Origin: a virus
DNA length: 64,000 nucleotides
Reading direction: 5' to 3' (one strand)
Virus record (IMG/VR): IMGVR_UViG_3300028557_000041
Location: 1 to 64,000 of that record
Below the pieces are notes generated by a model. That model saw only the letters and a program-made list of their open reading frames with translations, searched no databases and was not told the DNA's origin. The position numbers and the translations under genes are program-made. This document shows, piece after piece, positions 4,694 through 18,232 of the stretch (positions within the stretch are counted from its first letter, which is position 1; each line of letters begins with the position of its first letter).

Positions 4694-4779
4694 GGGTAAG
4701 CGGTAAAGTTGGAGAGTTACAGCGGACTGTAAATCCGTTGCCTAAGGCTGAGTTGGTTCGAATCCATCCTTACCCACCA
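4694..4779 (+). tRNA. tRNA-Tyr (GTA)
   Basis: Acceptor GGGTAAG (4694-4700) pairs with CTTACCC (4769-4775), discriminator A, encoded CCA (4777-4779). The anticodon loop CTGTAAA gives GTA. A long variable arm (GCCTAAGGC area) makes it class II as expected for bacterial tRNA-Tyr. One base separates it from tRNA-Glu. Confidence 0.93.
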
Positions 4780-4780
4780 T

Positions 4781-4855
4781 GCACGGTTCGTCTATCGGTT
4801 AGGACATTGCCCTTTCACGGCAGTAAGAGGAGTTCGATTCTCCTACCGTGTACCA
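4781..4855 (+). tRNA. tRNA-Glu (TTC)
   Basis: Acceptor GCACGGT (4781-4787) pairs with ACCGTGT (4845-4851, one G:U), then A and encoded CCA (4853-4855). Anticodon stem TTGCC/GGCAG encloses CTTTCAC, giving TTC. The T arm has GTTCGATTC. Cotranscribed with tRNA-Tyr. Confidence 0.93.
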
Positions 4856-7533: not shown

Positions 7534-7715
7534 TGGACAAAAAGTATGTTTACTACAAACCATTAAATGTGAATAATTTAAAACAAGTTGCTATTGCAAT
7601 GCATTTAAATTACCTACATACAATTCAATTGAACATGATTGATGAAGCGGTAGAGAAGTCTGATATGCAAGAAGCAAAAGATGTTATTAGTTATATTATG
7701 GAGAAATCTAAATGA
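7530..7715 (+). CDS. Hypothetical protein, 61 aa
   Basis: Two possible starts, ATG 7530 and 7533. Product is helical and slightly acidic (AVEKSDMQEAKDVISY). Overlaps both neighbours by 4 bp. Function unknown. Confidence 0.55.
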   Translation: MMDKKYVYYKPLNVNNLKQVAIAMHLNYLHTIQLNMIDEAVEKSDMQEAKDVISYIMEKSK

Positions 7716-7948
7716 AAAAAGTTGTATTAGTAGTTCTTGTTAGTGTTGGTATTGTTGGTTGTTCTTCAACACCATCATACAAACTAAAAGGTTATACAGG
7801 TCCAGAAGCCATGGAACGCAACGAGGTCGTGCAAGCATCTAAACAATGTATCTACGCCAAACTGCGTCCTAATGTCGAATTTGTGACCGCCAAAACCAAT
7901 AGCGGTAAAGTTCTGGTGCCTGTTAATGTCCATTGCCAACCTTATTAA
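7712..7948 (+). CDS. Putative lipoprotein, 78 aa
   Basis: MKKVVLVVLVSVGIVGC is a signal peptide with a lipobox ending at Cys17, followed by SSTPS. The mature part (61 residues) has two further Cys that could form a disulphide. An outer-membrane lipoprotein encoded by a phage could act in lysis (o-spanin-like) or superinfection exclusion; neither is shown by the sequence. Confidence 0.7.
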   Translation: MKKVVLVVLVSVGIVGCSSTPSYKLKGYTGPEAMERNEVVQASKQCIYAKLRPNVEFVTAKTNSGKVLVPVNVHCQPY

Positions 7949-15177: not shown

Positions 15178-15834
15178 ATGTTTAACTATTGCCCACCAAA
15201 AAACCTCGAAGATTTAGAAGCACAAACATTTCCTGATGGCAGAAGATTCTATCTATTACCAGATGGCACAAAATTACCATCAGTAACAACTGTTCTTGGT
15301 GCTCAGAAGAAACAGGCCATCATGGAATGGCGTAAGCGTGTGGGTGAAGATGTTGCCAATGCAATCACAAAGAAAGCAACCTCTCGTGGTACAGCAGTTC
15401 ACGTTTTATGTGAAGATTATCTAAACAATAAAGTGGTTGAACCTGGTGTTAAACTAGATGCCTATGAGATGTTTTTATCAATCAAACCATTTCTCAATCG
15501 AATTAACAATATACACTATCAAGAACAGGCACTATGGTCTAAACAATTAGGCATGGCAGGTCGTGTTGATTGTATTGGTGAGTTTGATGGTGAATTATCT
15601 GTGATTGATTTCAAAACATCAAAGAATATAAAAACAAGAGATGATATCAAAGAATACTTTTGGCAAACTGCGGCATATGCATTGATGTATGAAGATATGA
15701 TTGATACACCAATTAATAATACTGTAATTATTATGGCAGTAGAGAATGAAAAGCCATTATTATTCCAACAAAAGACGGCTGAATATATAGATGGATTAGT
15801 CGAGGCTATAATTTATTACGGAAAACAAAAATGA
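15178..15834 (+). CDS. PD-(D/E)XK exonuclease, MGME1-like, 218 aa
   Basis: Core motif: D131 (AGRVDCIGEFDG), then V-I-D144-F-K146 (D-x-K) and the Q163-TAAYA helix, the pattern of RecB-like nucleases of the MGME1 type. N-terminal PSVTTVLG is also typical. A single-strand DNA exonuclease role in host DNA breakdown or recombination is inferred. Starts one base after the oxygenase stop and overlaps the next gene. Confidence 0.85.
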   Translation: MFNYCPPKNLEDLEAQTFPDGRRFYLLPDGTKLPSVTTVLGAQKKQAIMEWRKRVGEDVANAITKKATSRGTAVHVLCEDYLNNKVVEPGVKLDAYEMFLSIKPFLNRINNIHYQEQALWSKQLGMAGRVDCIGEFDGELSVIDFKTSKNIKTRDDIKEYFWQTAAYALMYEDMIDTPINNTVIIMAVENEKPLLFQQKTAEYIDGLVEAIIYYGKQK

Positions 15835-16505: not shown

Positions 16506-16615
16506 TGCCTAGCAAAGAATGTGTAAGACAAGTTAAAGTAAAAAGTTTTGCATTTTACACCGGTGCCTGTGCTTTTGCATTGGGTGTAATTACAATGCTT
16601 TTTGTGTTGAAGTAA
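16505..16615 (+). CDS. Small membrane protein, 36 aa
   Basis: ATG 16505 overlaps the upstream TAA; a longer frame from 16391 would overlap the previous gene. A single span (FAFYTGACAFALGVITMLFV) after a basic N-terminus. Its stop lies in the first copy of a 22-bp direct repeat. Confidence 0.5.
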   Translation: MPSKECVRQVKVKSFAFYTGACAFALGVITMLFVLK

Positions 16616-16631
16616 TTCGTAGAAGTTGTTT
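16610..16631 (+). repeat. 22-bp direct repeat, copy 1
   Basis: Identical to 16771-16792 (begins AAGTAATTCGTAG, ends GTTGTTT). Contains the AAG-TAA end of the upstream gene. The second copy overlaps the tmRNA acceptor piece; the two bracket one Lys-rich gene. Confidence 0.85.
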
Positions 16632-16644
16632 AAAGGAAGATTCT

Positions 16645-16776
16645 ATGAAAGTTAAAGAGTTAATTAAAAAACTATATGAAGCTGAAGTTCATCATAATGT
16701 TGAAAAGGTTAAAAAACTTTGGCTTAAGTTACTGAAAAAATCTTTGAAACATAAGCATACTGAAGCTGTAAAGTAA
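16645..16776 (+). CDS. Small Lys-rich helical peptide, 43 aa
   Basis: ATG 16645 with AAGGAAG 8 nt upstream. Product MKVKELIKKLYEAEVHH onward is an amphipathic Lys-rich helix with nearly a third Lys. It lies exactly between two 22-bp direct repeats, so it may be a duplicated or inserted unit. Function unknown. Confidence 0.5.
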   Translation: MKVKELIKKLYEAEVHHNVEKVKKLWLKLLKKSLKHKHTEAVK

Positions 16777-16792
16777 TTCGTAGAAGTTGTTT
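16771..16792 (+). repeat. 22-bp direct repeat, copy 2
   Basis: Same sequence as 16610-16631, 161 bp away. Contains the AAG-TAA end of the Lys-rich gene; its last bases (16787-16792) are also the first bases of the helix formed by the tmRNA acceptor piece. Confidence 0.85.
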
Positions 16793-16836
16793 GAAAGTTG
16801 TTGTGGACGTGGGTGCGATTCCCACCACCTCCACCA
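16787..16836 (+). ncRNA. ssrA: Permuted tmRNA, acceptor piece (3' half)
   Basis: Contains the tRNA-like 3' half: GGAC, T stem GTGGG (16809-16813) and CCCAC (16821-16825) around loop TGCGATT, acceptor strand CACCTCC (16826-16832), A and CCA (16834-16836). CACCTCC pairs with GGGGGTG at 16905-16911. Upstream bases 16787-16805 pair with 16923-16943 to form the long tmRNA helix. The exact 5' end is not visible; at least 16787 is needed. The T-loop G at position 55 departs from the usual U. Confidence 0.85.
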
Positions 16837-16904
16837 AAAGTATATTAACGAACCGAGTTTCCGGTAGCAAACACACATTATAGTTGTGGTAATATACTTC
16901 TGAT
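16837..16904 (+). other. tmRNA intervening segment removed in maturation
   Basis: Between CCA and the 5' G of the coding piece. A perfect 10-bp stem, AAGTATATTA (16838-16847) with TAATATACTT (16890-16899), extends the acceptor stem, and two small inner stems occur (ACCG/CGGT and CACA/TGTG). This is the processed loop expected for circularly permuted tmRNA precursors. Confidence 0.75.
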
Positions 16905-17066
16905 GGGGGTGCCTAGATTCGACATGGCAATAATTAGAACAATGGAGAATCGCCAGAGAAGGCGTAATCACTAATTGAATTAAACGCAAACGATAATATG
17001 TATGCACTTGCTGCCTAACAGGTAAGCGGAGTTTCGCCAGGTGAACTTAGCAACAGAATCACCTGG
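16905..17066 (+). ncRNA. ssrA: Permuted tmRNA, coding piece (5' half) with tag ANDNMYALAA
   Basis: Begins GGGGGTG, then the conserved TAGATTCGAC D-loop region. The tag frame GCA AAC GAT AAT ATG TAT GCA CTT GCT GCC TAA (16986-17018) encodes ANDNMYALAA, close to E. coli ANDENYALAA. After the stop there are hairpins, the last a perfect 8-bp stem 17037-17044/17059-17066. No T arm or CCA follows, so the 3' half upstream is the partner. tmRNA rescues stalled ribosomes and tags the products for proteolysis. The 3' end is approximate. Confidence 0.9.
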
Positions 17067-17132
17067 ATAAATAAATCACCAGCATCACACAAACCGCTGG
17101 TAATACACATAAACACACACAAGGAGAAGTAA

Positions 17133-18010: not shown

Positions 18011-18232
18011 ATGCCTAATCGTGAAGAAATTAAAAAATTTAGTATGATGATTGAACAAATGGTAACAGATAAACGAATAGGTTATATGGACGCTATCTGT
18101 CACCATTGTAAAGAAACTGGTTTAGAAGTTGAAGTGGCTGCCACCTTAATCTCATCCGCTCTGAAAGCAAAGATTAAAGAAGAGGCACAAGATAACAATA
18201 TGTTGAAGAAAAGTTCTAAACTGCCTATATGA
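18011..18232 (+). CDS. 33: gp33-like late transcription coactivator, 73 aa
   Basis: Blocks MIEQMVTDKRIGYMDAI and KAKIKEEAQDNNML match, by eye, the core of T4 gp33 (IIEKMVEEFGMSYLEA, IIEKIQSEAIDENLL). It is shorter than T4 gp33 (112 aa), lacking the N-terminal part. gp33 bridges host RNA polymerase to the sliding clamp for late transcription. Neighbour gp59 supports a T4-type replication/transcription cluster. Confidence 0.75.
   Translation: MPNREEIKKFSMMIEQMVTDKRIGYMDAICHHCKETGLEVEVAATLISSALKAKIKEEAQDNNMLKKSSKLPI

Follow-up and report, generated by a model that had tools for sequence, protein, structure and literature searches.

A circularly permuted tmRNA gene on a T4-like viral contig with a conserved, predicted three-way junction between its two halves

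The window analyzed herein is a stretch of 64,000 nucleotides, positions 1 to 64,000 of the IMG/VR record IMGVR_UViG_3300028557_000041. The T4-type families gp32, gp59 helicase loader, gp6, gp19 tail tube, gp2 DNA end protector and gp4 head closure are found on the contig, which is T4-like by this gene content, in agreement with an earlier note on the same DNA that had placed a tmRNA on a T4-like phage. Among the matches listed, the identity of its gp6 protein to proteins of isolates does not exceed about 30%, with cyanophages first. Adjacent phage tRNA genes for Tyr (GTA) and Glu (TTC) occupy positions 4694-4855. The gene under study, a permuted two-piece tmRNA gene at 16776-17066 (+), lies between two conserved neighbors on the same strand, an exonuclease (PD-(D/E)XK, phrog_298; 15178-15834, +) and a late promoter transcriptional regulator (phrog_254, T4 gp33-like; 18011-18232, +).

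Dedicated RNA models agree on the permuted arrangement. ARAGORN called a permuted tmRNA (tmRNA*) at 16742-17109, and the Rfam model RF04321 (tmRNA_permuted) matched 16776-17018 with 119.4 bits (E=1e-22), exceeding its gathering cut-off of 47 bits. The one-piece model RF00023 reached 19.5 bits, below its cut-off of 47, and its match stops at the CCA; a one-piece tmRNA was accordingly rejected. The claim of a circularly permuted, two-piece tmRNA, for which the earlier note had proposed exactly these model searches, is thereby upheld. Furthermore, RF01850 (beta_tmRNA) matched 16730-17070 with 99.4 bits, above its cut-off of 84, and among the lineage models the beta score exceeded the alpha (67.8 bits) and cyanobacterial (39.6 bits) scores; by sequence, the gene is of betaproteobacterial type. 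An unconstrained minimum free energy (MFE) fold of 16776-16970 formed the T stem, acceptor stem, tmRNA P2 and spacer stem all together at -55.7 kcal/mol (z = -3.0), a value that none of 200 shuffles equaled. No promoter or terminator stood out at the tmRNA locus. Altogether, 16776-17066 is a real and probably functional phage two-piece tmRNA, a new member of a kind that has already been published.

The acceptor half, the spacer and the coding half follow one another as the earlier note had laid out. The acceptor half (16776-16836, +), delimited with RF04321, RF01850 and the MFE fold, contains a tmRNA P2 strand, the T arm, the 3' strand of the acceptor stem and ACCA, and its mature 5' end is predicted. 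Its end at 16836 had been placed correctly, whereas the start proposed at 16787 lies too far downstream, as the conserved part begins at about 16776. The T stem (16809-16813 with 16821-16825) is followed by the acceptor strand CACCTCC (16826-16832), which pairs as proposed with GGGGGTG (16905-16911) at the beginning of the coding half, and by the terminal ACCA (16833-16836). Pair 3-70 of this tmRNA is a G-U wobble, and G3-U70 is the alanine identity element of tRNA-Ala and tmRNA. After an intervening sequence of 68 nt (16837-16904), the coding half extends over 16905-17066, as delimited by Rfam and folds, its predicted 3' end being that of the last helix (17037-17044 with 17059-17066, from the fold). 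The pairing proposed between 16787-16805 and 16923-16943 exists, not as the single helix once assumed but as two tmRNA P2 helices, 16786-16792 with 16937-16943 and 16797-16805 with 16923-16931. A short hairpin is predicted at 16951-16954/16961-16964, a place taken in the closest relatives by a longer PK1-like region. The tag frame GCA AAC GAT AAT ATG TAT GCA CTT GCT GCC TAA (16986-17018), read by ARAGORN as ANDNMYALAA*, is the tag named earlier, and the coding piece is not followed by a T arm, again as had been claimed. A hammerhead-like CUGAUG before the GGGG was considered and dropped, relatives having TTGATG or TATGATG at that place.

Related loci were collected by scanning IMG/VR for a pattern of CCA, 45-75 bases and a 5' acceptor strand, which matched at least 120 stretches. 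ARAGORN found 112 tmRNAs on the loci retrieved, all but one of them permuted (111/112); copies of the window gene make up three of these calls. For covariation, 38 distinct phage precursors were used, all with the same spacer type as the window. Standard pairs occupied 96.4% of paired cells, compared with 37-52% when the partners were slid, and two-sided changes were seen in 26 of 46 pairs. All seven helices (7/7) received support, and covariation in these phages extends to the acceptor stem, the T stem, P2 and the helices of the spacer. The acceptor and T stems were 100% paired, with the T stem intact in 38/38 relatives and two-sided changes in 5/5 of its pairs. G3-U70 was likewise kept in 38/38 precursors, and two loci (L132 and L138) have the acceptor stem rebuilt as CTGGTCC/GGGCCAG with the G-U pair retained. 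Neither of the results that the earlier note had named as refuting its reading, a hit to an intact one-piece tmRNA or a lack of such covariation, was thus obtained.

The tags of the relatives are mostly ANDNKFALAA or ANDNKYALAA; an AND start and an AA end are nearly always kept and the middle is variable. In nine loci (L128, L136, L142, L144, L152, L163, L167, L180 and L183) the tag is ANDKYALAA, with nine residues and thus one codon fewer than in their relatives. By exact pattern, ANDNMYALAA followed by TAA was encoded by no genome of the genome contig collection, a search that excludes that tag only. At one further locus (L164, near 7647-7850), no resume site was found after the coding-half start, and an insertion may interrupt the tmRNA.

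Gene order around the tmRNA is also conserved. Most of more than 60 loci, and also the Pelagibacter phage HTVC008M, share the order exonuclease, tmRNA, gp33-like gene, then gp59 and gp32; in most related loci the phrog_298 exonuclease, the tmRNA, a cell-wall hydrolase, the gp33-like gene, gp59 and gp32 lie on one strand. Across the related loci, the proteins encoded by these neighbors share between about 30 and 97% identity. Because the position is conserved and common to HTVC008M, the tmRNA appears to be old in this block, which suggests that it is ancestral to the T4-like gene block and not a recent capture. The HTVC008M tmRNA is likewise permuted, with phrog_298 upstream, phrog_254 downstream and gp59 and gp32 beyond, but differs from that of the window in its tag (ANFNEYALAA) and in an unrelated spacer sequence.

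The expectation that a permuted tmRNA would be unusual on a T4-like phage does not hold. Permuted tmRNAs of marine and aquatic phages, including T4-like ones, were published in 2022 (PMC9004378), and of the 133 distinct phage tmRNAs in a 2021 database, 53 were classed as two-piece, among them 50 aquatic ones (PMC9004378). The tmRNA database that is the source of the permuted model holds 79 bacteriophage tmRNAs (PMC11915505). Since two-piece phage tmRNAs have been published and many loci are found here, including HTVC008M at the same place and the 111 of 112 permuted calls, rarity is not tenable. In the OM43 myophage Melnitz, a two-piece tmRNA adjoins the late-transcription coactivator (PMC9004378). 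The tmRNAs of Melnitz and related marine phages resemble the present one in being phage-encoded and permuted, in belonging to a T4-like phage and in lying near the late-transcription coactivator gene. However, the ssrA gene of Melnitz clusters with alphaproteobacterial tmRNA, and a glutamine riboswitch has been reported for it (PMC9004378), whereas among the lineage models the beta one fits the window tmRNA best, and no riboswitch was matched. With the betaproteobacterial permuted tmRNA (RF01850, RF04321) it shares the order of the halves, the G3-U70 acceptor stem, the T arm, P2, the resume site and an AA-ending tag.

Upstream of the tmRNA lies a partial copy of its own 5' end. The repeat AAGTAATTCGTAGAAGTTGTTTAAA at 16610-16634 (+) is 96% identical to 25 nt at 16771-16795 (+), which cover the 5' end of the acceptor half. 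The two copies are 161 nt apart, with a 43-aa ORF between them (16645-16776, +) whose TAA stop runs into the 5' end of the tmRNA. Among 30 related loci, a second repeat copy was found only in the window. Sequence related to the 43-aa ORF adjoins the tmRNA in six loci (L127, L130, L140, L145, L154 and L166), and in relatives different ORFs adjoin the tmRNA at the same base. Because of this junction and the 25-nt duplicate, the sequences suggest recombination at the tmRNA boundary, of which the direct repeat is possibly a remnant. The same partial duplicate, 161 nt upstream, could be taken as a sign that the gene is a decaying, functionless copy derived from a host, as could a PK1 region that is short compared with those of the closest relatives. 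Against decay, all helices are intact in the window and compensatory change is seen elsewhere; short and long PK1 regions both recur in relatives; and the position of the gene is conserved across divergent phages. Decay is therefore considered very improbable. Among loci with the window's spacer type, the PK1 region between P2 and the resume site is either short (about 26 nt) or long (about 52 nt), and the two forms alternate among otherwise similar tmRNAs.

The spacer itself is predicted, by fold and covariation, to form a three-way junction. It is closed by the ten pairs of spacer P1 (16838-16847 with 16890-16899), the 10-bp stem that the earlier note had recognized around the 68-nt spacer. 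The consensus fold adds spacer P2 (16852-16855 with 16862-16865) and spacer P3 (16872-16874 with 16886-16888), the latter a consensus pairing that is often a short hairpin; the joining strands ACGA (16848-16851) and AGCAAA (16866-16871) are near-invariant. The 18 spacer pairs were 97.2% paired, eight of them with two-sided change. In shuffles of the spacer, the number of extra pair types was no higher than chance, while other covariation measures were above chance. The invariance is partly a matter of ascertainment, because the spacer-search pattern fixed about 20 bases (ACGA, CC, GG, AGCAAAC and GGCA); among the nine loci found without the pattern, both joins were kept in eight, with L058 deviating.

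Close kinship among the phages, rather than structure, could in principle account for a conserved spacer, as the members have a common gene order and therefore sample one lineage. Yet their neighboring proteins span about 30 to 97% identity, and mean pairwise identity is 0.91 for the spacer minus the P3 loop compared with 0.74-0.76 for the T arm and tmRNA P2 strands of the same RNAs. The helices also carry compensatory changes, including that of the window itself, whose closing pair is A-U where the others have G-C. Conservation through kinship alone is accordingly judged improbable, and the comparative evidence indicates that the 68-nt spacer is a conserved, covarying and phage-specific three-way junction.

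The distribution of the spacer is consistent with this specificity. The spacer pattern matched 66 viral stretches, 63 of them, on contigs other than that of the window, inside a permuted tmRNA at exactly the same place; the remaining three (L139, L151 and L161) lie outside a tmRNA and look like chance. With a model of the spacer, R1, members scored 61-92 bits and all other phage spacers at most 32 bits. No DNA match to the window spacer was found in isolated phages, and the pattern was absent from the tmRNAs of 84,980 prokaryote genomes; a single match in a cellular genome (L185) lies outside a tmRNA and is attributed to chance. In 399 genomes of one bacterial order no spacer was found by pattern or model, a search of low power because few genomes there have a beta-type tmRNA (10 of 250 pass the beta tmRNA cut-off). 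At the 10 genomic loci above the beta-model cut-off there was no spacer-model match at E<0.1, and their spacers were shorter, simpler or not recognizable. Herein lies the difference from betaproteobacterial permuted tmRNA: the 10 genomic loci have short, plain or unrecognizable spacers and the window a 68-nt three-way junction, so that the window tmRNA departs from a trait, the short simple spacer, that is usual for the type and not defining. In the databases and literature examined, the structured phage spacer appears to be undescribed, although an earlier mention of conserved spacers for betaproteobacterial two-piece tmRNA is possible.

Other phage permuted tmRNAs carry spacers of other kinds. 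A second, unrelated type with the near-constant core TAGATGAAAGAAACC...GGGCTCTA was seen at 14 loci (L028, L037, L042, L055, L065, L071, L073, L077, L080, L081, L088, L091, L116 and L118) and has apparent compensatory changes by eye. A third recurring type, ATATGCACATAGCATATAGAGACATAAGAAAC, was found at L031, L039, L044 and L105.

Taken together, the data are best explained, with a probability of roughly 0.92 and on comparative sequence grounds, by a functioning permuted tmRNA that is processed in two pieces and tags stalled products, its spacer aiding maturation. A single precursor would be transcribed, and its acceptor and coding halves would fold together by pairing in the acceptor stem and P2. 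By analogy with known permuted tmRNAs, host tRNA-processing enzymes would cut after the CCA (A16836) and before G16905, freeing the spacer and leaving a two-piece RNA joined by base pairs. Host alanyl-tRNA synthetase would presumably charge the tmRNA through G3-U70, and host SmpB would deliver it to stalled ribosomes, where the tag A-ANDNMYALAA would be added for proteolysis; a host SmpB has to be assumed because none was found on the 64-kb contig, which is partial (the record has 64,115 bases).

The same lack of SmpB on the contig would fit an RNA that does not tag but acts as a decoy, occupying host SmpB, AlaRS or ribosomes and thereby weakening or redirecting host rescue. According to a passage in PMC11915505 that cites the work, the tag-less tmRNA of phage DS6A was reported to inhibit the endogenous tmRNA in E. 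coli. However, every readable member of the window's spacer type retains the tag frame, the resume site and the AA ending. A decoy could do without these features and is for that reason regarded as improbable.

Within the preferred explanation, that of a working tmRNA with a spacer that aids maturation, the most likely role of the spacer, at about even odds, would be to bring the two ends together and present them for cleavage. Alternatively, the tmRNA may work while its spacer, as an aptamer or riboswitch, makes maturation in the course of infection depend on a metabolite or protein. Near-invariant single-stranded joins around covarying helices are aptamer-like, and a precedent is offered by the glutamine riboswitch reported at Melnitz ssrA (PMC9004378). 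On the other side, no Rfam family was found in 16837-16904 even at E<=10, riboswitches included, the only matches being sub-threshold ones on the minus strand and the tmRNA models. The spacer motif was found inside tmRNA only, a restriction that would be atypical of riboswitch aptamers, which as a rule are met in more than one context. A riboswitch thus seems unlikely. A somewhat broader idea, still doubtful, is that the spacer is an RNA domain in its own right, either acting as a switch in response to a ligand or a protein or persisting as a stable RNA after excision. Such a domain would give the phage control of ribosome rescue during infection, other phage groups having other domains.

The spacer of phage permuted tmRNA is usually treated as a discarded linker. 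In the phages compared here its conservation exceeds that of parts of the mature RNA, its helices covary, its joins are near-invariant and it was found in phages only, which suggests selection on the precursor itself. This spacer may therefore provide a small, easily mutated handle on the question of why phages have tmRNA and on the control of its maturation.
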